Shown here: positions 4,338 to 56,894 of the stretch, piece by piece | Numbering within the stretch: position 1 is the first letter of the stretch | How the letters are laid out: every line of letters begins with the position of its first letter | DNA from: Ascidia mentula | Lineage: Eukaryota > Chordata > Ascidiacea > Phlebobranchia > Ascidiidae | Assembly: GCA_947561715.1 (NCBI GenBank) | Contig: OX387203.1 | Coordinates: 5,890,001-5,954,000, forward strand | DNA: 64,000 nucleotides | Reading direction: 5' to 3' | Position numbers and translations under genes: made by a program | Notes under the pieces: model-generated | What the model was told of the DNA's origin: nothing | Databases searched by the model: none | Seen by the model: only the letters and a program-made list of their open reading frames with translations

Positions 4338-5170
4338 GCCAAAATATGCGCATAGAATCGTTTGCAACTATCATATATGTATAAATTAGATGTAGTTTTG
4401 GCCAAAAACTGGGTATATGTGAATGATTCATCTGAATGTGATTACCAGAAAATTTAAGGCATTACAGCCAGCAAGTTATTCAATTTTGGAAAAATTTAAA
4501 CAGTCGTGTTAGTGTTAAATTGTGCATAGAATCGTTTGCAACGATCATATATGTTGGAATTAGATGTCGTTTTGGCCCAAAACTGGGTATATACTCAAGA
4601 AAATCGCAGTGAATGATTTATCAGAAATTGATTACCAGGAAATTTAAGGCAATACATCCTGGAAGTTAATTAAATTCGAAAAATTTTAAACAGTCGTGTT
4701 GGTGTTAAATTGTGCATAGAATCGTTTGCAACAATCATATATGTTGGAATTAAGCGTCGTTTTGTCTAAAAACTTGTTAAACCCACCCTAAAAATTGCAG
4801 TGAATGATTTATCAGAATGTGATTACCAGAACTTAATAAGGCACTATCCAGGAAGTTAATCGTTTTATTGTTAAATTGTGCATAGAATCGTTTGCAACTA
4901 TCACATATGTTGGAATTAGGCGTCGTTTCGGCTAAAACTCCAGAAAATTGCAGTGAATGATTTATCAGGAATTGATTACCAGAAAGTTTAAGGCACTACA
5001 GCCCAATTAACAGGCAGTCGTGTTGGTGTTAAATTGTGCATAGAATCGTTTACAACTATCATATATGTTGGAATTAGATGTCGTTTTGGCTAAAAACTGG
5101 TTAAAACCCCCCAAAAATACAGTGAATGATTTATCAGAATGTAATTACCAGAATTTATAAGGTGACACAG
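4338..5170. repeat. Five-copy satellite, unit about 155-190 bp
   Basis: The block GTGCATAGAATCGTTTGCA, followed by a conserved run containing ATATGTTGGAATTAG, starts at about 4345, 4523, 4714, 4880 and 5035. Each unit ends with a segment containing CAGTGAATGATTTATCAG. Unit length varies by internal deletions and the copies differ at several positions, so the array is not newly made. It lies between the two arms of the large inverted repeat. I see no coding frame across it. Confidence 0.9.
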
Positions 5171-22337: not shown

Positions 22338-24995
22338 TTATAATGGTGGTGGTGGAGGAATGCCAGTGCTAGACGGTGGTGGAGGAATGCCGGTGCTTGA
22401 GGGTGGTGGTGGAATGCCAGTGCTTGAGGGTGGTGGTGGAATGCCAGTGTTAGACGGTGGTGGTGGAATGCCAGTGTTAGACGGTGGTGGTGGAATCCCA
22501 GCTTTGGGAGATGTAGGAGCATTGTGCAAAAAGGATGTCTGACGTTCTTTTTCTCCTGTATTAGCGACTGGGGCTCCAGTAACATCTCTTTCTATTTTTG
22601 GGCTTGCTCCGCTAGGTGGGGCTGGTGGTGGTGGCGGCAGGACACCGTCTGCATTTTTTTCGCCGGCAGGTGGAGCTGGAGGTGCGCTGTTTGCTTCCGT
22701 TTGGTGCGCTGGGCTCGTTGTCTTGAATGATTCGAGTGATTGGCCAACACTACGTTTTGGTGTGGTGTCCGATTTTGAACTGAAAACCGATACGGCGTCG
22801 TCTGTATCTGACACAGCTTTGGGCGCATCGCTTGTTTCGCTAACCGATGGTGTTTTGCCAATAACCGGAACGCTAACCTGTTAAATTGTGGAGTTTAAAA
22901 TGACGTGCTTACAACAGCTCGTATGTAAAGGTTGTTGTATAACGTTTTGTTCGCCTAACAATTGCGGATTAACAGACAAGCAAACCTTAGTAAGTGTTTT
23001 TCCGGGTTTAGGGGATGCTTGGCTCTGCTCAGTGCTCGCCACGCTGCTGATGTCGTCAGTGTCGGTTTCTTCCCTTTGTTTTTGAGTCAATCTGATGATG
23101 GTGGGACTACTTGCAAATGCTTGGTTATCGGTGTCAAACACGTTGATCTGACGTAAATAAACCGTTGAATTAAGAGAAATTGTCATAAAAGCCTAAAGAA
23201 ATAAGTATTTTCCGGGAAGGCCAAAACGAGTTAAATTTACGTCTTTTTTATGGAAACTGTTGCGTGATAATGGAACAAATCGCCCTTACACAGGATTTTC
23301 ACAGAGCAATAATATTGTTTACTTCGCTGTTACGCAGTAAAGAGAATTAAGTTGGGATCAAAGCAATCTAATCTGCCTAAGGTGTTAAATAAAGCGTGTT
23401 AGAATCTAACACCTCTTCTACTAGTTATCACAGAAATTACAAGACCAACTAATACTCATTACCGTTGTTTGATTTCCAACATACATGGTGGTTTTGTCCT
23501 CGATTGACTCCGAATTCCATATTTCATCCTTGGGAATTATGCTAAGTTGGACTGCACCAGCATCCGATATCCAATGCGGGTTTTGTGCAGCTTTTACCCT
23601 AAACGACTACACAAAATACAAAACATTTGTGGTCATTGTAAAGATACCTGGAAATACGGGTTATATCTAACCTCACAAACAATGTGGTCTTATAATTTTG
23701 CTCGTCTAGTGGTTAACAGCGTCATGATTAACTTGTTGGGAACGCATATTAAACACTGCATGCAACATAATGCTGCTTACCCTTCGTCTTTTCCGCATCA
23801 AGCAGATCATGACGACAATCAATATAATGAGCACTAGCACAACGGCCCCCGCCAGCACCCCAAAAAGCCACGGGTCCAAGCCAATAATTTTGTTTGGCTG
23901 GGTAACGGTATTAACATTTGTTGTGGAGACGACACTTCCCTGTGAAGCTGTCGAAGGCACAGCGGTAATATTTAAAGCTTGAAAATCGGTGGTAGCGTTT
24001 GATGGTGGTGAAGTGGTGATCCCTCCTGCTGATACCGTATTTGCTTGGCTCGTCACAGTAGTAACAGGGTGAACGGTTGTGCTTTCTGCAACTGTTGTAT
24101 CCGGGACAGTGGATGTAGCAACTGTGGTGTCAGTAACAGTGGATGTAGCAAATGTGGTTTCAGCAATTGTAGTTGTATCGACCGGGGTGGTTGTTTCCGT
24201 TACAACATTTGACGTTTGGGCAGTAGTTGTGGAGGCCAACGTGGTTGCAGTGGCTGTGGCATCCACGGGCGTAGTCGTTTCAATGACAGTCGTTGCGTTG
24301 GCAAACACAGCTGCAGTCGAATCTACCTGTGCGGTGGTGGCGGCCATCGTACCTACGTGTACATACAAAAAAGACATGCAAATTACGCACTTGGGTTATT
24401 TCCTCGTTCTATAGCGTGCGCCTCGCCCGTTCAAGGAAGCAACCGACACTTGGCCCGGTGAACGTAAGGCTGTGTTCCAGGCTAACTCTCATGATAAACG
24501 ATTACGTATATTTTGGTATCAATGTAAGCCAACTTAAACCATATTATGTACTCGGATACACTGTGAGTCATATAATCTTTTTCAAGTGAACTTTTCGTGG
24601 TGTATAATTTTATGCGCACGTATCTGCACTTTCAGTAAAATAACACATCATGGTTTAAATTTGCCTTGTGGCGGTTTCCTCTTTAGCGGGTTCCCAGAAT
24701 AGATCCATCACAAAAAAACAATGGAAAACGTGGCCTAATTTGTCGTTTATCATTCTACAATATTGCACTCTTCTGACTTGGTTTATGTAAATGCTTCATA
24801 AAGTGTAGATAATAAATATCCTATACTGCCCCAGTTACACCGTACAAATTACTGCAACAAGAACGTCTAAAAAGTCACAACACTTGTACCTGCGCCGTGC
24901 GCTTCCCTCGGCTCCCCTGTTGCAACAATGCCCATATCATCGCTGGTGAAATCTTCTAGTGAAACCACGGATGTTGCGTCAATCGTCGACGTCAT
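22338..24995 (-). CDS. Mucin-like single-pass membrane protein with polyproline cytoplasmic tail
   Basis: Not assignable to a named family. Five exons read on the minus strand (24995-24890, 24352-23781, 23606-23463, 23147-22986, 22877-22338) join in phase to give 507 aa. Residues 1-195 are rich in Thr, Ser, Ala and Val with repeats such as TTTPVD and TVATSTV, suggesting dense O-glycosylation. A 25-residue hydrophobic helix at about 197-221 is followed by RKRRR, a stop-transfer signal that puts the C-half in the cytosol. The tail has acidic Ser-rich patches (DTDDISS, DTDDAVS), PPPPPAPP, and a closing array of GIPPPPSNT units likely to bind profilin, EVH1, SH3 or WW domains. This layout suggests a mucin-like surface protein coupled to actin. 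No signal peptide is seen, so an upstream exon may be missing. AATAAA overlaps the region just after the stop (22325-22320). Confidence 0.75.
22341..22499 (-). repeat. 27-bp coding minisatellite, GIPPPP repeats
   Basis: Five units of 27 bases encode GIPPPPSNT (two) and GIPPPPSST (three), followed by GIPPPPPL and the stop. Units are nearly identical at the DNA level, which indicates recent expansion and likely length polymorphism. Confidence 0.9.
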
Positions 24996-38751: not shown

Positions 38752-40138
38752 CTATTCAGAAAACACATTGGAGAGGCGTCGAAAAAAGTTTATGTCTTTT
38801 CGTGTATCTTTCGCAGATGTGGAATTCGCCTCTTCTTTCATCCGCTGGATGGTGCTCTGCATCTCTTGCGTCAGATGGTGATTCACACCCAATTCCATTT
38901 TGTATTGCTTCAGTGTGTCCTGTACGGTTTATGATGCGATCAAATAAAAACATGTTATTTAACTAAGGTTTTTGTATGTGATTAACAAATAAAAACTGGA
39001 TCAAAAAACCAAAGGCCCTAGAACAAAACAGAAACTGATGATGCCGTTTTAGGCGAAATATATTTTTCTCTTAATAAATCCATCTGAGCTGTCTAAAGAT
39101 CGCTTTGTTGGGATTTTAATATATAATTAAGGATTTTGTATGATTTCATTTGACAAATAACATCGTTTTGCTTTTGTAATTTTAGTGCACATATGTATAT
39201 GGGATAATTAACCGTAATTTAAAAACTTTCTATTGAGTTTTCTATGTCATTGTTCGCAATTTCATGCATGTTATTGACAGTGTTTGACTCTGTTACCGTT
39301 CTTGCCCAACAACATGAAGAGAATGCAGCCTAACACTTTGCATAGAGGTATAGGCCTAATTTTCTTGTGTACGTTTAGGTCCAGTTTGGGGCCACAGGTT
39401 CGAAGCAATATACCTGCAAGATTAGCAGAACCTCTTCTCGAACCGTGGCTATCAAGGGGTCTGGAAGATCGGTGGTAGCGTGTTTAGCAACGCTTCTTAA
39501 ATACTGCAGGTGTTCTTCGTTGTTCGCAAATTGACTGTGTGACGTCATTTGCGTCCATTGTTTGATCAACGTCATAGCTTTGATCTGTCGGTTAACGCGC
39601 TGTGCCACGGATTTTAAAGTTGCTTTCTGAGATTCTGAGTCGGTTTTGGCGTCAGCCTGTCCTTCAGCCCCAGTGTCCGCCGATTGCAATTTACCCCATA
39701 GGCTTTTCTTGGGCGTCGTTGTCGTTTTTTTAGCTGTTTCATTGCTCGTAGAGGGTTCTGAACTGCAAGGCATTTTTCAGAATTATTGTTTATCTGTTGT
39801 TTATTTTTCAACTTTTTCGGATGTTTTCTGGAACGGCTGATTTAAGCTCCACAAATTAAAAAAAATTAAGAGAAATTAAAAAGTATCTAGGGTTATTTGT
39901 ATAGTATGGACAAATATACTAACGTGCTGAAAACTTTTCTTTTTGGAACAACATACAACAAGTTCACTTACGACGCAGAAGTCGTTTCTGGACTGTCTGC
40001 GGTTTGTATACGCTTTCCTGTATTAACCTTCTTCGTTTCCGCTTCGCTTCTTGCAGCCGTTTCTACTGATTGCTCATTAGCGCTACCAAGCGGATCGTTT
40101 TTCTGCTTGGGTTCAACTTTTTTTGACGAATCGCTCAT
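38752..40138 (-). CDS. Unrecognised coiled-coil protein
   Basis: I do not recognise the family. Three minus-strand exons join in phase: 40138-39972, 39762-39414, 38919-38752, giving 227 aa. The N-third (MSDSSKKVEPKQKND...) is polar, Ser/Thr/Lys-rich and probably disordered. Then come a Lys/Thr run with SLWGKLQSAD, a helical segment around QRVNRQIKAMTLIKQWTQ, and a likely coiled coil around residues 155-200 (EEVLLILQDTLKQYKMEL and EMQSTIQRMKEEAN). The C-end is INFFRRLSNVFSE. The Met just upstream of the second exon (39773) belongs to the intron: the acceptor AG at 39763-39764 rejoins the frame exactly. Its 5' end lies 230 bp from a plus-strand start, so the two probably share a promoter. The last intron contains the second hammerhead-like repeat. 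Confidence 0.7.
38972..39125 (+). repeat. Second copy of the hammerhead-like interspersed repeat
   Basis: Matches 7484-7715 at both ends (TATGTGATTA, GGATCAAAAAACCAAAGGCC, then the core and AGATCGC with a TTTGGATTTTAATA-like end). CTGATGA at 39035-39041, a GCC/GGC stem, GAAA at 39055-39058 and a 5-pair outer stem (39030-39034 with 39065-39069) are kept. The left inverted arm is lost. It sits in the last intron of the minus-strand coiled-coil gene. Confidence 0.65.
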
Positions 40139-40368: not shown

Positions 40369-40581
40369 AATGGTTTCTTCTCAGAACGTACAGAGAAAGA
40401 ATGGTCGCTTTTCCGGCGTGTTTTCTGGCCAACATACATCAGTCGCTGATGACGAGGAATCAGAGCAACAGAGAAAGTATTTGAAGAAAAAAGCCAAGAA
40501 GCGGTACCTCCAGTTCCAAAAAATCCTTGAACACCGCTTGAGAAAAAGAAAAAGGCAAAGGAAAATAATTTATAATTGTTA
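40369..40581 (+). CDS. Small Lys/Arg-rich ORF, 70 aa, possible first exon
   Basis: Frame MVSSQNVQRKNG... with an acidic patch ADDEESEQQ followed by a strongly basic predicted helix (KYLKKKAKKRYLQFQKIL). Its composition and compact helix look coding. It ends at a stop about 130 bases before the next candidate start, and ATTAAA lies between. It may be a complete small protein, the upstream gene of a pair, or a first exon of the large gene that follows, although no convincing phase-1 donor was found. Function unknown. Confidence 0.4.
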
Positions 40582-40711
40582 GTCAATCGATTCGACAAAA
40601 ACGTTGACAACTTTCTTTTTTTGTTTATGTGTATGAAAACGTATAATTCTGCCTCATAAAAATTCGTTTCATTAAAATAATTTTTTTTTTTTTATGTATT
40701 AATATTTACAA

Positions 40712-43700
40712 ATGAAATATGCACAATTGGTTGATGTTATGGGAGTAAAATATGACCGTTTTGCAGGCGCATCTAAAAGCATAACCAGCCTTCAAACCAT
40801 TCCAAAGCAAGTCATTTATAAAAAATTTTCTCACCCTTCAAGAAGTGCTGACAAAATATATGACGACATTATTGAAGAGCGAACGATCCAATTTCGTGTG
40901 AAAACAGATGAAAAACATCCAACGACATCAACCAACAAACAAAGTTTCAAAGGCGAGACCATGATTCAATAATTTTGTTGTGTAGCCTTTAGCTAAAACA
41001 GAGCTTCACCACTAAGGGTACATGTGCCAAATTACTTTGAAAATGGCCTATTTTGACCTGTGTTGTCCTTGCTTGTATGTTGTTTTCCGTTTGAGTTGTG
41101 CACTCCAGACTAAAATGAATAACTAGGTCTGCTTTCCTTTAATATAGTATAATGCACATGCCCTTGTTTGCATATAAAGAGAAAGAAATGACACAGTTTT
41201 CAACAGGTCGACAGCCTGTTGAAGTAATTCTCAATTACATCCTAAATGCACTTAAAAAAGCTTTAATTTACGTTTTTAGATGCAAAGAAATTGATCGAAT
41301 TGACCAAAGAAAATTTAAAGTCAGTGCCCGACTTTCGGAAACCTGTTTCCACAACAAAAAAGAAAGGTGTTGTACTATTTTACCCATTTCCGTACCAGTC
41401 CTGAGCGTATTAGTTTCTTTAGATGCGCATGGCCGAATCAATGACATTCAATCGAAACCAAAACCTGATTTTCAAGACCTAATGAAAGATAGGAAAATTA
41501 CAACAGGAATTTTGTAAATATTTACAATGCATTGTTTACGTTTTCATAGATACGAAAGACCAAAGACGACCGACTCGAAAAGAGTTGCCAGGTAACCTAA
41601 TCGCGAATCCCCAACAAGGAATGAAATTATTCATTGCGTTTTGTTGAGAAACCAATATTTTACCACGAAACGGGTTTGAAGCTTATTGACTGAGAACTAA
41701 GAATTGACCGAATTCCTAAATCTCAAATTTGCAAATATCTTCTTGGTTCTTGTAGATTTTCAAGAACTGGACTCGACAACGCACAATGTAAGAGGCACTG
41801 ATCATAACAGAAGACATAAAGGTGCGGTATGCCGGTTACCTATATGCTGTACCAGTAATGAGTATTTTGACATGTTTCAGATACGCAGAACCGAATCCAA
41901 GACCGACAATCTAAATTTGAACCTGATTTTCAAGACCCAAGAACAGGTGCGAAATTTGTGCTTAAATATAACGAAATAAAGCGTTTCCTTCTGCATAATC
42001 TCTCACACATTTTCAGTGCGTTGTTCATGCATTCACAGCTAAAAAAGAGCAAAATCGACAGACTTTATTTTTCTTCGTTTAGACGCAAGGAAATTAACGA
42101 AATTGACCAAAGAAAATTTCAAGTCAACAGTGCCCGATTTCCATAACCCTGTTGCCGATACAACAAACTGGAATCAAAGGAAGCCACATAGAAATAAATT
42201 TCAAGATGAATATGAAGATATTCGTCGTCCAGGTTCTGATCTAATTCGTTATATATTTTATGTCAAAAGATTATTTGAACCAAGTTGTAAAAAGTTGAAT
42301 TTGTTCATGTAGACGAGCCTGCACATGGAACTAAGGACAAAAATCAACACAGAAGAAAGAAGGGTGCGATAATAGCAAATGTTACCCTATTTCGTACCTT
42401 ACCGAGAATTTTGTTTTTTTAGATGCACAGAACCGGATTCATGATCAACAATCGCAATTTGAACCTGACTTTCAAGACCCGAGAACAGGTGTAGAACTTG
42501 TGCTTAATTATATTGAAAAATTGTGTTATATTACTGCACAATTTTGCACATATTTTTAGTGCATTGTTCATATTTTTACAGATATTAAAGAGCAAAAATA
42601 TTCACCTTTTTTTTCTTTTTTCAGGCGCAAAGAAATTAGCGAAATTAACTAAAGAAAATTTCAAGTCAACGATTCCCGATTTTCATAAACCTGTTGCCGA
42701 TGCAACAAACTGGAATCAAAGGGAGCCACATAGAAATAAATTTCAAGATGAATATGAAGATATTCGACGTCCAGGTTCTGATCTAATCCGTTATATATTT
42801 TATGTCAAAACAATATTTATACCCGAAAGAATCAAAATTGCAAAAAATCTTTAATTTGTTTATGTAGATTTACAGGACATGACTACACGAGAAACAAAGG
42901 GCACTGATCATCACCGAAGAAAAAAGGGTGCGATAATACCCTACGCTTATACCTATTCCAAAACAGTAATACGCATTTTGTTGTTTGTTTAGATACACAG
43001 AACCGAATCCATGATCTACAACCTGATTTTCAAGACCCAAGAAAAGGTTGTGCTTAAACATATATAATAAAATACTGCGGTTTTACTGCAACATTGGCAC
43101 TTGAATGTAAAAAATTGGTTTTGAAAATATTTTTTTGTCATCATACCCAGGTCGGTTTAAAAACAGTTGCCAGGTAACCGAAATAACAAGGCATCGTTTC
43201 GTGAACAAGACACAGCAATTTATGCAATCTGCAGCTTTATTAACATTTTTCGTTTCGCAGAGAAGAGAAACCGCCTCGTATCACACAAAGACAAAATATC
43301 ACCACACACGAAACCTCTTGACAGTCATCTTACAGGTTCTAGATAGTGTATAGAACGGTTGATAATTTTATTTGTAAGAATTTTGTTTTATAATCCTATT
43401 TCATTGCAACGTCGAGCTAATAGTAGTTAAAATGGCTAAATTTTGTGCAAATAAATTCAGTATTTATTTTGTGGTAATCAAAGTGGCAATTTACAAAAAT
43501 TTAAAAAATCGTTCTATTCAATGTAGACCTTAAGTCCAATTTTCTTTAAATGAATAAAACTCGGGAAACTGTGATGTAGACAAACCCCAGTTGCACCCAG
43601 GAATCTCTCATTACTCAATACAACAAACATGTCAAACTTGAAACTGTTTGCTCTTCAAAACAAAATGTTTTGCAGAAAACTTCATCGATGGTCTGGAAAG

Positions 43701-46700
43701 CAGCTTCGGAGAAGTAAAATTACACTCTCGTTATCCGATATCGGGCGAGAAATTGGACAAGCAAATCGAAGGCGGTTTTATCAACAGCGACAGCTCGTTC
43801 AAGAACAGCGAAGACTCGACAAACAAACGTAAGAACCAGATAGCAAAAAAAAACCCCAAGGAAACCTTATTTGCTTCCCACATTTAAAACCGATAGTCGC
43901 GACAAGTAAATAATATTGCTTTCGCATAGTAATGTGCCTGGCAGCATCATCAACGAACTTTCTTTTGACAAAATCATCATAATTTTGAGGTTATTAAGAC
44001 GTTTTCTAATCAACTGCCGCTCTGTCGATACCGACCAACTGTATATGTTATTCAGCTTTTAGATGCTGCAACAACAACGTACTTATCATATTCAACGTCT
44101 TCATATATTTTTGTGCCATTCTTCTCATCGTTGAAAGAAGCATCGGTAACCATAGTGTTAGTTGATTGTCAGTAAGCCCGTTTACATGAACAATTGAAGC
44201 GAATTCGAATGCGCTTCGCTCAATCGCTCCTCCTGTTGTTTGCGCAAGAGGAGCGACGGAGCGCTCAATCCGTTCGAAGGAGTTGTATTAAATTCGCTTC
44301 GCTTTCAATCCACTTCGAGAACAGAAGAATGCGAAGGGTTTTCGGCGTGCGTTTTTTGAGTTTGCCATGTTGTATAAGATAAATGATAAACAGTAAAAGT
44401 TTAGTGCTTGACATAGGTTTTAAAGTTGTTTTAGGTGTATGCAGTCCACACTGCACGCAGTGCAATGGATTCCAGCACACTTAATGTTTTTAGTTTTTTC
44501 TTGTTTCATCGTAAACGGTATGTTGTTCAAGAGAATGCCGCGTATTTTAAGATGTTCGTTTATTTTGCCACGATTTTTAGTCAATAAAAATTACCAAACC
44601 TCACACATAAACACATGCGAATTATCGATTGGATTGAGATGTTCCAATTTATTTCACTTCCGGCTAATCCGATTCGCTTTCGGTCGCACATGTAAACGGG
44701 CTTACTGATATAAGAATTTTAGTGCGGCAAAGACTAGTGCAATATTTCCCAATCTGTGGGCCGCGTAAAATTTTTGTTGGGTCGCTTGTTGCAAGTAAAG
44801 CAAAAATTACGAATCAAAGTTTGTGTATCGGTTAGTTCTATTATTGTTTGTTACGTTAAAGTGTGAATTTCATGATTAGGTCGTGAGTATTTGCAAAAGG
44901 AAATAAAATAAAATAAGGGTTGCTTTAAAAAAAGGTTGGAAACAGTTGTATTACTGATCATTCATTCTGATGTCAGTATGTTGTTGACAATTTAATTCTC
45001 TTCTTCATTTTTACAGATGTCTTAAGTTGTTCTATAAACGATGATGGAAGCCCCAGTGTTTCACAGGTTAAAAGTTTCATAATTGGTCCACTGTAGGTCT
45101 TTTTATTTTTCTTCTTGTCCGCAGAACAACTCGCTCTTATCGACATTGCCCGGTCACCACCTGATTCCGCCACAACCCCCTCCAGTGACAGAACCAATCT
45201 TGGTACCGAGTCAAACACAGGTCACAATCTGCAGCATTGAATCATTTCATAAATTTCAATCCACTTCCAAGATTATGCAGTAATATTTCATGCAATGGCA
45301 TGATTGACAGGATCAGGAAAAAGTGGCTGATCCAGCTAGGCTGCAATGCCTGGGCTGCCAAGCCTGCAAACCACTTCCAACATTAAAACACGAAATAAAT
45401 TTTAATAAGGAACATAATTCATCACCGAAAGATTAATTGTTTTTCAGAAAACCACTACTTCGACAAAAGCAACCACAACACTTCCGCCGTCACCCATAAT
45501 TTCCAAACCCATGTTCATTATGCAACAAAACGTGCATTCCGTAAGCTACCTGTATTAAAAAAAACGTGTCCACTACATGGGCCCATGCAAGTAGTCAAAT
45601 TAGTACGACAAATTTAGCGTAGCACTTACGAAAGAAACCCACAATAGATGAAAAATCCCATCGCTTGTTTTGCTTATTAGTGTCAAGACTTATCGACGTG
45701 TGGTGCCTACTTCAATTTTAATGCTATACATTTTTTTACGCTTTTCATGCTTCGTTGCCCCAACAAAACTGGACAATCTGTTTCTCTGTAATTCACAATG
45801 TTTGCGGATAAACTCTCATCACGCTTTCACTTTTAGGGTTTGCCGTTGTATCTTCCTCCCATTCCTACGTACGATAAAAAGGGATCAGCTTACATGCAGC
45901 ACATTGGTTATTGGTCTAACCTGGTAAGTAACATATAGATATATACATTTTTGTAATCATAATATCTGAGAGCATGTCTGCTAACAGACCTATTCACAAC
46001 ATGTAAAAAAGATGTTTGTAGAAATGATTGTTGAAAAGCGATTTGTGTTGTTTTGGTATATTGTTTCGTCTCACGCATCTTAACAGGTGGAAAAAAGTCG
46101 TTTACAGAAGTTTTGTTTTTGTAAGATTAGTTTCTAATTTTTTGTTACTCTTCGCAGTACCGGACGTTTTTCAGCGGGAGTATGGGATTACAACACATTG
46201 ACAAAGTCCAAGTAGCAATGATTAATTACAGGACTGATCATTGGCTTAAACAGGTGTGTAAACTACAAAACCATCTGTTACGCGTCTGAAACACCCCATA
46301 GTCTTTTATCCGAAACTAAGAAGCACAAATCAATTCGTCGCCAGTTCACAAAACTTTGAAACCGTTTGTAAAATTTCATCTTCATTGCGTTAAAGTACGC
46401 AGTTATAATAAGCCACAGATAAACATCTTGAAACAGTTTACAGCTAACAGTATGAATCCGACTCTATTTATGTGCAAACCTGGTAAGTATTTAACAACTG
46501 TTTGATACTTGTGCTCATTACACGTCATATGAACGTAAGCTAATCTAGAGGTTCGCAAATGCTTCGCCGCGACGCACCGTTACGTCGTTTTAATGTGATG
46601 TCGGAAGCTTAGGCCTACTTGAATGCACCTATATTTACTTAACAAACTGAGTTATTGCAGTAATAAATAAACTTGCATTCAATTGGAATTTGTCCCACTT

Positions 46701-48227
46701 TTTAAGTGTCTCACATTGGTAAAAACTGTACTGTCACCCAAAAAATGAAGTCAACAATTTTACGATGCGTCGTCATAGCACTTGGCGTCCATGGTCCACG
46801 AGAGGATCAACTGAACTTATCAACGCGCCATAGTCCAAACAGAAAACGCCATACAACTTCCATTCCGCAGGTGCTTAGTCGTGTGCATGGAGACTACGAG
46901 AGAAACATTCCATTGTTAAAGTGGATAGGTATTGAACACGGGTATCCTCATTCCATCAATAGATGGTCAGCATGTGTTTCCAATCTCGTCAGTCACCACT
47001 TTAACCTCACTCATCCATCCTTTGTCGGTTTTGTGTCTCTGTTTGTTGGTAAGCTTCTCCGGGGGTGTTTTGCTGAAGTCATCATATTGTAAGAATTAAG
47101 AGAATAGCCCACCGCACTGTTGTCAACATTCAATATATTCGTTCCGAAATCGACCTTTTTCTAATGCCACTTGTTGTGCGTGACACAGGTGGAAACTTCA
47201 CGTTTGCAAAATTACAATATCTTTTTTACAAATCTATTTGAAAATTACAACTCTATTTGAATAAGAACTGAGGATGCTTTTAGCGAAACATGTATTCTTT
47301 GCAATGAATGCGATGGCACAAGGTTACTTTATATTGTAATTATTGTCAACATTGTCATGTTAATACGAAAAACGTTTCGAAACGTTGACAATAGTATGGG
47401 CCAGTCTCTTCATTCTGAACATCATATTGTATCATATAAGCTATCGCAGTATGCCTTTTCGGGTTCAATGCACACCTTTTTGTACGCAGCGTATGGAAAT
47501 AGTTCGTTTGAAAATATATGCGTCAGACATATAACTTGTTTCAAGACATTTTAATGCTCATGCGTTGCGACCGTTACTCCAATCTAAATAGTTTATTCCG
47601 TTTAAAATTACAATATAAATTCAAATAAATTCGCAGTGCAACCGTTTCCATCCTACGACGGGGGTAATTCGTTGTAAACCTTTTACATGGGTGCCTGCGC
47701 TCAATAACCCTTATGCGGTTTCTTGAAAGTCACTTTTCTTCCATATTTCTCTGCTTTCCAGAGGCAAATCTTGGAGCAAGACGAAATGATTTTATTATGT
47801 TGCTGTTTGCTGCCAGACGTATTTTAATTATCTGTCCTTCTGGCACAATTAAACGTAACTTTTGTTGACAGGGTAAAAACCATTACCACTAACGTATTAA
47901 AGCTTAGATTTTTAGAAATGATTTTATGTTCTATGGGTTGTGTTCTGAGATTTTGACCAGTTTTGCGTTGCTGATTTCTATGCGACAGTTGCAGAAGAAT
48001 TCTACGAGGCGATTGAAAAATCATCAGTGGCTGCATCTCGGTCTGCAAGCCTACCTTCCTACTTCGACCAGTGCAAAGACGGAAAGAAATGGCAGCTTCA
48101 CGATCCTTTCAGCTGCTATGCTCAAAACGAGTGGATTTGCCCAGAAACTGGTGAACGGGATTACTCATTTAAGGACCCCCTAATCTACGTGGATATCAAC
48201 AATGTGGAGTGGGAAGATGCACCGTAG
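40712..48227 (+). CDS. Large unrecognised gene with amplified exon array
   Basis: No family recognised. The 3' part is firm: exons 43676-43828, 45017-45066, 45125-45220, 45448-45540, 45837-45923, 46158-46253, 46871-46928 and 47989-48227 join in phase and end in TAG. They encode a Ser/Thr-rich start (NFIDGLESSFGEV), a Pro/Thr-rich linker (PPQPPPVTEPILVPSQ), then a possibly folded region with LPLYLPPIPTYDKKGSAY, YRTFFSGSMGLQHID, DHWLKQVLSRVHGDYERN and a C-end with WQLHDPFSCYAQNEWICP. Upstream, nearly every exon starts and ends in phase 1 (see the array entry). The extreme 5' end is unsure: 40767-40895 is also symmetric phase 1, but the same frame is open back to an ATG at 40712. Exon C1 (41423 on) lacks a GT donor. 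Confidence 0.65.
41280..43173 (+). repeat. Tandem array of duplicated exon triplets (A, B, C)
   Basis: Three exon types recur in order. A: 41280-41366 (short form), 42083-42232, 42625-42774, encoding forms of KLTKENFKSTVPDFH then NWNQR.PHRNKFQDEYED. B: 41756-41821, 42313-42363, 42868-42927, encoding a variable start and D(H/N)RR(K/H)K. C: 41423 on (no GT donor), 41881-41946, 42423-42488, about 42993-43046, encoding DTQNRI.D...FEPDFQDPR. A further type D lies at 41550-41591 with a possible relic at 43151-43173. Repeat period is about 540-570 bp and the introns between copies are also alike, so whole genomic units were duplicated. The full-length copies begin and end in phase 1, so any can be skipped or added without frameshift. 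Confidence 0.85.
44169..44708. mobile_element. MITE-like element with 20-bp perfect terminal inverted repeats
   Basis: Ends TCAGTAAGCCCGTTTACATG (44169-44188) and its exact complement (44689-44708) enclose 540 bp in an intron of the exon-array gene. Near both ends lie AATTCGAATGCGC-like and GATTCGC-like subterminal words. No transposase frame is inside, so it is non-autonomous. A CAG...CTG edge would suit a hAT-like element, but I see no clear 8-bp target duplication, so superfamily stays open. Confidence 0.8.
47250..47300 (+). repeat. Spliced-leader-like 16-mer joined to a hammerhead-like module
   Basis: 47250-47265 matches the published Ciona spliced leader (as I recall it, ATTCTATTTGAATAAG) at 15 of 16 bases. 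No GT follows, so it is not an SL RNA gene. The next bases form the best hammerhead-like core in the window: outer stem 47263-47267 with 47295-47299, CTGAGGA at 47268-47274, a GC/GC stem, GAAA at 47285-47288, inner AC/GT pairs and A at 47294. A nearby partial copy of CTATTTGAA at 47233-47241 means the leader match could be local chance. Confidence 0.45.
47838..47857 (+). repeat. Copy 2 of a dispersed TTCTGGCACAATTAAACG repeat end
   Basis: Exact match to 35410-35429. It lies in the last intron of the exon-array gene, about 130 bases before the final exon. Confidence 0.65.
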
Positions 48228-54380: not shown

Positions 54381-56894
54381 ATGTCACACCGGATCGGTAA
54401 TCTACTTGATGTTACAACCAATATGGTTTTTAAAAACCAAACAAATGCACAAAATCAGGTAAATGTCTTATAATGAAGTTTGCCATCAGTTTTAGCATGA
54501 ACAAGTGATTTTACGGTTATCAATGTGCTTGAATATTGTTTGTTTGGCATGTAACTGTTTAATGTATAATCCTGGCATTATAGTGTTGATTAAAATATAA
54601 ATGCATGTTGTTATGTGTGTTTTATGTGTATTTATATGTTGGGTATCATTATACAATAGTATATCTTATATATTGCATGAATTGTTGTAATATTTTATAA
54701 TACATATATGGAATAACATTTTGCATTTACTGTGTGTTTGTGTGTGTGGATAGTAAACCAGTTGCTAATATTATCCATAGTTGCAAAGTGTTATATATTG
54801 ATTTTATTTTGTAATAGAAGAAAGCAAAGAATGACAAAAAGCCATCTTCAAAAAGACCAGCTACTTCGCCAGCCAAAGGAGCAATCCACAAGAGATCTGC
54901 TTTGGGTGACATCACCAATAATGTAAGTTAGCATAAGAAAACAGTTTGTGTTGAACAAAAGGAACAGAGAATAATAGGTGACTTTCATTATAGGCCGGAC
55001 TTCAAGCAAAGAGTCAAGCTGTTAAGGATGTAAACAAAAAGACAGAAAACACAAAAGAAACTTTAAGAAGAAGGTCAAGACGCTTGAAGCCACAAAATAT
55101 TGCTGGAGATGATGATAATGTCAACATGGACAATGTTATCAGGTGTGTATTGCAAAATATGAATTGCACTGATTGTATTGGGCGGTTGTGTTTAACTCAT
55201 TTGGCTTTGTTACAGCTCGCAAGACACTACAAGCTCAGCTGAAACCAGCTACAGCTCAGCATTGTCTGAGGAAATAAAGTCCCTTCCACGTGACTTCCTT
55301 TCAAGCCCCGAAGAATCCACACCAACCTGTTTTTTCGAGCACTTGGCGTCGCCATCGAGGCGTGAACTCAATTTCAACGACTTGGACGCAGCCAACAGTG
55401 AAAACATATACGAATCTCCGGAATACGCTTTCGTCATATTCGAGTACATGCGCGCTCGCGAACGCAGCTTCGTTATCGAACCGCGTTATCTGTCAAAACA
55501 AAAGGAATTATCGTCGGAGATGCGAGCGATCGTCGTCGACTGGATGGTCGAGGTAGGCACTGGCACCTGATAAAATTAACAATAGAGTAGATAATGTGTG
55601 AATGCGCGGCGCTAACTCCACCCCATCTTTTGCACAGATTCAGGAGAACTTCGAACTGAACCATGAGACTTTGTACCTGGCCGTAAAACTTGTCGATCAC
55701 TACCTGCAGAAGGTGTCGGTATCACGTGACCGTCTCCAACTGGTCGGTGCCACTGCACTGCTCATTGCAGCCAAATTTGACGTAAGTTTAGATTGAGCAT
55801 ATTAGAGAAGTGTGTTTGTTTTTTGTAAAATTTGAACATTATGTTGTCACTGCGCGTAGCTTTGACATTGTTATATATGTAATTTAGTGCCACTAACTCC
55901 ATTTACCAATCATTTATTTCGCAATGAATTAGCTTTTGTAACTGCTTTTCGGCTAAAACCTTTCCAAATATGTTTCAATAAACATTTTGTATTTACAAAC
56001 AGGAGCGTCACCCTCCATACGTCGACGACTTTCTTTACATCTGTGACGACACATACACGCGTCGCGATTTGCTCTCATTGGAGCGCGAGATGCTTAAAGT
56101 CATCGGATTCGACATCAACATTCCAGTTCCATATCGTTTTCTTCGTCGCTACGCCAAATGCGCCAAATCCAACATGCGATGTCTGACTCTTGCCAGATTT
56201 ATCCTCGAACTTTCGCTTCAACACTACCCTCTGGTACACGAATCTGCATCCAAGCTAGCAGCTGCCGCTTTGTGGCTGGCTTTCAAGATGGAAGGCTCCG
56301 ACCGTCAATGGGTAGGTGTTATAACTCGTATAAATGTGTTTTATTCAATATTAACTGTTCAATTAGTGATGCTAAAAAGGGGAAAAATGTGTACATACAT
56401 AGTCTTTGCATTTATTTTCAGTTCAACTGTTTTAAATAAAAAATAATAAGTTTGGGCGTAAAATATGATTTACGAATACCTGGGCAGCAAGGTGCGCAAT
56501 GAATTGGTCCCTAAAACGTTTTTTTTAATATTTGCAGGACGATACACTTCAATACTACAGTTCGCACACCGAGAAGGACATCATTGATATCGCCATCGAA
56601 CTGTCCCATATGATTGTGTCTCACAAGCAGAAAAACCTGAAGACGGTGAGTCGCACTTTTGTTATCTCACGCCCCAATTTGCTTTCCACATATGACACCG
56701 CACAGCCTGCGGCGTTTATCGGCAATGTAACTCAACTCAATCTTATTTTCCTGCAGGTCTGGACAAAATATTCACACCCGATCTTCTACGAGGTCGCAAA
56801 AACCGCGACCCTTTCCGAAGAGAAGTTGGCGGCAGAAAAGATCCGCATTTGTGGAAGCTCCTCTTCTCCAGTTCAATCTCTGCTCCAACTGTAG
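54381..56894 (+). CDS. Ccnb3: G2/mitotic-specific cyclin B3
   Basis: Regulatory subunit of CDK1, active in the nucleus in mitosis and meiosis and destroyed by the APC/C. Eight coding exons in phase: 54381-54458, 54818-54922, 54994-55142, 55216-55552, 55638-55781, 56003-56311, 56538-56645, 56757-56894, giving 455 aa. A destruction box RSALGDITN sits at 52-60 in a Lys-rich N-tail. The first cyclin fold has MRAIVVDWMVEIQENFELN (about 213 on) and PPYVDDFLYICDDTY. The second has INIPVPYRFLRRYAKC and SKLAAAALWLAFKM, then KYSHPIFYEVAK near the C-end. The PPYVDDFLYICDD and KYSHP.F.EVAK forms favour B3 over A or B1/B2. Start is the ATG that opens the D-box frame; no KEN box is seen. The N-tail is much shorter than in mammalian B3, as in other invertebrates. 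Confidence 0.93.

Follow-up and report, generated by a model that had tools for sequence, protein, structure and literature searches.

In the analysed window, a stretch of 64,000 nucleotides of the Ascidia mentula genome (contig OX387203.1, positions 5,890,001 to 5,954,000), we identified a plus-strand gene at 40370-48227, which quite probably is a live gene that carries in its middle an intact, protein-coding array of tandemly repeated exon blocks. The gene model comprises 21 GT-AG exons, which upon in silico splicing gave a single frame of 701 residues plus a stop codon, whereby the array accounts for residues 129-392 (264 residues). Splice sites were selected manually such that the frame stayed open, and were then checked by script; two array exons, A1 and D4, were excluded from the model. 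Since the exons were chosen in this way, the open frame and the exon lengths in multiples of three are partly a product of selection: the used frame is open in all 21 exons by choice, and both other frames are closed in 10 of the 21 (N1, N2, C1, B2, B3, C3, Y1, Y5, Y6, and Y7).

The repetition of small exons at 41280-43173 on the plus strand, which had been described in an earlier note, was borne out by a direct-repeat analysis of the region 40.0-48.5 kb. This analysis yielded a direct repeat of 220 nt with 90% identity at a distance of 542 bp, four copies of an A-type block with spacings of 458, 542, and 558-570, and three copies of a B-type block. Given the length of the match (220 nt at 90%), the array repeats are not due to chance. 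TRF did not report the array, the longest period in its output being 500. The homologous exons lie next to each other in the same orientation and possess homologous introns, such that exons and introns both align between the units. The earlier note had proposed an A-B-C exon triplet; A, B, and C are indeed repeated, but a fourth element, D, is present as well, and the unit reads B-C-A-D. D belongs to the repeat family D5. No shuffle out of 500 reached the similarity of D1 to unit 3. The same holds for the ends of D1 and D4, whose match covers 23 bases and spans the splice site (again 0 of 500).

Four units can be distinguished, two of which have kept B, C, and A. These are unit 3, consisting of B2 (42083..42232, 150 nt), C2 (42313..42363, 51 nt), A3 (42423..42488, 66 nt), and a remnant of D (42582..42597), and unit 4, consisting of B3 (42625..42774, 150 nt), C3 (42868..42927, 60 nt), A4 (42993..43046, 54 nt, an in-frame shortening by 12 nt compared to A3), and the short D-type piece D4 (43151..43173, 23 nt), which has both AG and GT. 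Unit 2 contains C1 (41756..41821, 66 nt), A2 (41881..41946, 66 nt; DTQNRIQDRQSKFEPDFQDPRT), and a D remnant (42039..42054), and a B exon is not recognisable there (226 of 500 shuffles as good). Unit 1 is made up of B1 (41280..41366, 87 nt), A1 (41423..41513), and D1 (41550..41591, 42 nt), the latter being the sole usable copy of D, whose coding use we infer, as all three of its frames are open. Length differences between the modelled copies of one exon type are divisible by three (B 87/150/150, A 66/66/54, and C 66/51/60). B1 combines the 5' part of a B exon with a C-type 3' end, and the intron that follows it is of the C-A type: 39 of 54 aligned bases are identical to the C2-A3 intron and 39 of 47 to the C1-A2 intron, the latter alignment having 21 gap columns. 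Because the next intron matches a C-A intron (a similarity reached by 4 of 500 shuffles), B1 is read as a fusion, and it looks like a B/C fusion that arose by a deletion, the direction of change being deduced without an outgroup.

Some copies seem to have dropped out of the coding sequence. A1 has an intact acceptor, but its donor is lost, as there is no GT at the homologous position; the next GT (41514) would give an exon of 91 nt, the inclusion of which shifts the frame and brings codon 217 out as a stop. If D4 is included, translation likewise ends early, at codon 439. In units 2 and 3, what is left of D lies upstream of the acceptors of B2 and B3, respectively, and continues into them, lacking a separate donor. 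Thus, A1, D4, and the remnants of D have probably fallen out of use. Older module copies were also sought outside the four units. In comparison with unit 3 at the DNA level, no similarity was seen for N2 and X2 (shuffles as good: 243 and 498 of 500, respectively) or for the region 40990-41270 (131 of 500). The X1 region (43261..43335, 75 nt, phase 1-1) could at best be a weakly similar, diverged module copy. Its DNA was matched by 23 of 500 shuffles, and the X1-A2 peptide pair, with 9 of 1000 shuffles as good, was the only one at or below 50 of 1000 among 44 peptide comparisons (N1, N2, X1, and X2 against 11 module copies); due to the many tests run, X1 is not claimed as a module. Between the exon types, four A-B peptide pairs were matched by 6, 15, 17, and 74 of 1000 shuffles, which makes a kinship of the A and B exon types possible. 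The other pairs between types gave 23 (C2-D1), 203 (C1-A2), and 508 (C3-B2) per 1000.

Symmetric phase 1, as suggested for the array by the earlier note, applies to 10 of the 12 array exons: B1, D1, C1, A2, B2, C2, A3, B3, C3, and A4 are bordered by AG and GT and have phase 1 at either end, but A1 and D4 are asymmetric. The expectation that symmetric phases permit a frame-neutral loss of modules was confirmed for these 10 exons together with X1 and X2, since all 4096 skip subsets of the 12 exons reach the normal stop, which is a consequence of the exon phases. The donor consensus is GTAAGT, and several donors of the array are far from it (GTGTTG, GTTCTG, GTGTAG, and GTTGTG); such weak donors could reflect regulated skipping or decay. 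It is in this context that alternative-splicing cassettes have to be considered, whereby copies of A, B, and C would be skipped in combinations to give many protein lengths, and, in one variant, A1 and D4 would serve as regulated truncating exons. The in-frame outcome of every one of the 4096 combinations, the weak donors, and the acceptor sites retained by A1 and D4, the use of either of which truncates the protein, are in agreement with this idea. However, symmetric exons are equally compatible with constitutive splicing, and decay would give weak donors too; we consider cassette splicing possible but rather doubtful. It can hold together with the preferred reading of an intact coding array.

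That the array copies evolve as protein-coding sequence under moderate constraint is supported by the distribution of differences between them. In eight gapless blocks between copies (140 codons), 71 bases differ, with 18, 15, and 38 differences at codon positions 1, 2, and 3. These cause 34 residue changes, compared to 47.0 expected if the same substitutions are placed at random, and none of 3000 simulations gave a number as low. In frames displaced by one or two bases, which comprised 132 codons and 66 differences, 2287 and 2896 of 3000 simulations, respectively, were as low, and stops appeared. An earlier version of the test with six pooled pairs yielded 38 changes against 51.2 expected (0 of 5000 simulations as low), and the A and B exons alone yielded 20 against 28.3 (0.0022). 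For single pairs, the fraction of simulations as low was 0.253 for B1/B2, 0.118 for B2/B3, 0.027 for A2/A3, 0.116 for A3/A4, 0.058 for A1/A2, 0.055 for C1/C3, and 0.494 for C2/C3; hence only A2/A3 out of the seven is below 0.05, and the pairwise tests are not independent, as the pairs have copies in common. C2/C3 taken alone gives no sign of constraint (9 changes against 9.5 expected), and exon C of units 3 and 4 agrees in 36 of 51 aligned bases, which is less than for most introns. The estimated values of dN and dS were 0.065 and 0.217 for B2/B3, 0.079 and 0.974 for A2/A3, 0.072 and 0.532 for A3/A4, and 0.332 and 0.824 for C2/C3. For the pairs with A1, they were nearly equal in A1/A2 (0.288 and 0.339) and amounted to 0.274 and 1.223 in A1/A3. 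From these patterns we conclude that A2-A4 and the B copies are likely to have been translated since they arose, with C being loosely constrained.

These data also bear on the possibility that the array was once coding and is now decaying, with splicing bypassing some or all of its exons and the third-position signal being left over from the past. Such a decay would account for the lost donor of A1, the frame-shifting D4, the two D remnants, the missing B of unit 2, the unconstrained C2/C3 pair, and the weak donors. On the other hand, the 10 remaining exons retain AG, GT, and an open phase-1 frame, and the coding signal postdates the origin of the copies: it lies in the differences between them, and constraint must thus have acted after they arose. 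A decayed, non-coding array, which the earlier note had named as the counter-case to its proposal, is compatible with the state of A1, of D4, and of both D remnants, but is disfavoured by the codon-position test for A2-A4, B, and C taken together, and we regard the decay reading as improbable.

With regard to age, the recent amplification assumed in the earlier note would apply to a single tract at most. When pairs with A1 are set aside, the remaining eight have dS values from 0.21 to 0.97, and the intron identity between units 3 and 4 is 72-83%, with 88% for the B-C intron; the dS range together with the intron identity of 72-83% argues that the array as a whole is not very recent. The matching intron sequence GGTTCTGATCTAAT, which had been placed beside exon A, turned out to be the start of the intron behind the 150-nt B exon (KLTKENFKS type). 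It is here, in the 3' part of B3 and its next intron, that the sequence is almost identical to B2. The comparison of B2 and B3 with the next intron revealed 4 differences in 121 nt versus 16 in 80 nt, and 34 of 2000 permutations were as extreme. This clustering of differences is best explained by partial gene conversion after the duplication, which, with modest statistical support, may have homogenised B2 and B3 in part.

The array is preceded by two exons. N1 (40370..40577) contains the start codon and a very basic stretch, KKKAKKRYLQFQKILEHRLRKRKRQRK, and ends in the donor GTTAGT. N2 (40767..40943, phase 1 in and out) has an uncertain donor, GTTTCA; an alternative donor, GTGTGA after 40895, keeps the frame and gives a protein of 685 aa. 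On the minus strand, a possible gene lies head to head at 39375-40138, starting about 230 bp from the start codon of N1; a Pfam search with its larger reading frame yielded nothing up to E 0.01. Behind X1 follow X2 (43676..43828, 153 nt, phase 1-1, donor GTAAGA) and the exons Y1 (45017..45066, phase 1 in and 0 out, both other frames closed), Y2 (45125..45220), Y3 (45448..45540), Y4 (45837..45923), and Y5 (46158..46253), the latter four being of phase 0-0, as well as Y6 (46437..46482, phase 0 in and 1 out) and the last coding exon Y7 (47995..48227), which carries the stop codon. That the exons at 40370-43828 and 45017-48227 belong to separate transcripts of two genes is unlikely: X2 and Y1 are indeed separated by a 1.19-kb intron with a repeated inverted-repeat element (44169-44708), but X2 ends in phase 1 with the donor GTAAGA, Y1 is open in phase 1 only, and two genes would in any case leave the array itself unaltered.

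The introns in this 3' part contain repeated elements. The one at window positions 44169-44708 is a short inverted-repeat element with perfect ends of 20 nt (TCAGTAAGCCCGTTTACATG) and 500 nt between them, and looks like a MITE-type element. At least 50 similar stretches, including itself, occur genome-wide (40 of 167 candidates scored), and those listed are distributed over nine contigs. The intron between Y6 and Y7 harbours a dispersed repeat at 47150-47357 with at least 69 matched stretches including itself (40 of 553 candidates scored). Among the matches listed, many span query bases 1-71 or about 103-192, and some occupy a single place on both strands, which would suit a palindromic element. 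Within this repeat region, at 47250-47265, there is a one-mismatch copy (ACTCTATTTGAATAAG) of the 16-nt spliced leader ATTCTATTTGAATAAG, which PMC7986045 gives for Ciona intestinalis. This copy may be a chance occurrence, since three matches at up to three mismatches were found compared to 1.56 expected. In the genome the leader ATTCTATTTGAATAAG has 2157 exact sites (1091 forward and 1066 reverse), and a reversed control pattern had none, which speaks for an ascidian. Some of these sites are arranged in series, one every 719-720 bp, e.g., at contig C1 15239666-15297871, and others are dispersed; three dispersed copies that were read out of the 2157 sites had nearly identical surroundings, with GTGGAGCC after the leader, which is reminiscent of a mobile or retrocopied family. 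Elsewhere in the window, a cyclin exon, among solved structures closest to cyclin B1, is located at 55982-56446, a 27-bp tandem repeat with 5.7 copies and 92% matches at 22348-22501, which on the minus strand encodes GIPPPPSST repeats in a proline-rich frame, and imperfect tandem repeats with periods of 190 and 158 at 4419-5095.

As to the affiliation of the gene product, the encoded pieces match no known repeat family, as the earlier note had supposed, insofar as no convincing Pfam, NCBIfam, or PDB match was found for them. Pfam yielded nothing at the curated cut-off for the spliced protein. Its best match was CTF_NFI with an E value of 0.0034 and 17.7 bits against a cut-off of 27, covering residues 11-71 of the Y1-Y7 part, and was rejected together with further weak matches below the curated cut-offs, FidL_like (0.037), DUF1087 (0.047), DUF7632 (0.61), and DUF4736 (0.44). 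NCBIfam gave no match with one unit and the C-terminus as queries, and a PDB search with the complete protein remained empty up to E 10. With the C-terminus as query, the PDB returned two chloroplast-type ribosomal S17 chains (E 0.75 and 1.2), which were also dismissed. The genome was furthermore searched with B, mixed C/A/D/B, N-terminal, and C-terminal peptides, and no second locus was found; the locus was matched once in the one assembly searched (195.8 Mb in 79 contigs, the contig of the window having 19.9 Mb). Two matches of the N-terminal peptide beyond N1 and N2 themselves were at chance level (E 0.48 and 2.4). Among the papers listed in literature searches by subject, we recognised none as describing the gene. 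With a 701-residue frame and no surviving family match, the proposal of a modular coding array in a gene of no recognised family thus stands, and the gene would be a single-copy ascidian gene of an unnamed family encoding about 700 residues.

The array and the N-terminus fall on the disordered side of the charge-hydropathy rule, and the C-terminus of 153 residues falls barely on the ordered side. B2, folded alone with no alignment, was predicted to be coil for the most part, apart from two short helices (mean pLDDT 72.4, pTM 0.21), and Y7, treated in the same way, gave no usable fold (pLDDT 45.6), so that predicted folding lends poor support to a C-terminal domain. The A and B exons encode six repeats of a PDFxxP motif, PDF[RQH][KDN]P, a seventh motif, PDFQEL, is formed by the D1-C1 exon junction, and the array also contains basic patches of the RRKKG type. 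As the likeliest function we tentatively suggest a motif-array or spacer role, in which a putative disordered array would display the PDFxxP motifs in a multivalent manner, as their repetition hints. The array segment would be situated between the basic N-terminus and the C-terminal part, and its PDFxxP motifs and RRKKG-type patches would function as a multivalent binding array or as a flexible spacer. The protein is probably intracellular, judging from its basic start.

Exon arrays are known from other genes: the PEVK exons of titin are small and of a disordered type, and the modules of nebulin represent a recognised actin-binding repeat. For titin PEVK, PMC6469411 describes duplication and loss of exons, with the repeat length changing over evolution and by alternative splicing, and PMC9142044 reports recurrent copy-number variation of the titin duplication region among the people tested, as well as copy-number variation of the nebulin triplicate region. 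The ascidian array is like titin PEVK in that exons are gained and lost by duplication within a single gene, but it has only four ragged units and shows no sequence relation to PEVK in Pfam and PDB. With the nebulin triplicate region it shares the tandem repetition of a block within one gene, whereas the ascidian modules match no family in Pfam. Tandem exon arrays of the Dscam type, which according to PMC1397879 are spliced mutually exclusively, similarly consist of homologous exons in tandem inside a gene. Here, in contrast, multi-exon blocks are repeated that can be joined together in frame, and hence mutual exclusivity is not required.

Taking the preferred reading of an intact coding array as a basis, the middle of the gene would have arisen through tandem copying of a block of four exons, B-C-A-D, in which the phase-1 borders allow blocks to be gained or lost with the frame intact. 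Unequal crossing-over may have made and trimmed the units, and single exons have been lost from single units, as seen in the apparent B/C fusion in unit 1, the absence of B from unit 2, and the unusable state of A1 and of three of the four D copies. Partial gene conversion would later have homogenised the shared B2/B3 tract. A more far-reaching view, which we regard as no better than speculative, is that of an ascidian-restricted family in which the number of PDFxxP modules is tuned by unequal crossing-over among individuals and by skipping of symmetric exons among tissues. If this were true, binding valency would be a variable trait, and A1 and D4 would be kept as truncating switch exons.

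Most likely, the gene has an architecture of a known kind with a protein that is as yet unnamed, and represents a fairly ordinary case of growth by exon duplication. Within 1.9 kb it appears to record duplication, fusion and loss of exons, the loss of a splice site, a change in length that keeps the frame, and the homogenisation of one tract, and with selection apparently acting on the remaining copies it would make a readable case of a protein growing by the copying of exon blocks. It may be just another gene without known relatives that bears a tandem exon duplication; should its copy number or its splicing vary, however, the array would provide a natural test of selection on the valency of a disordered motif array.
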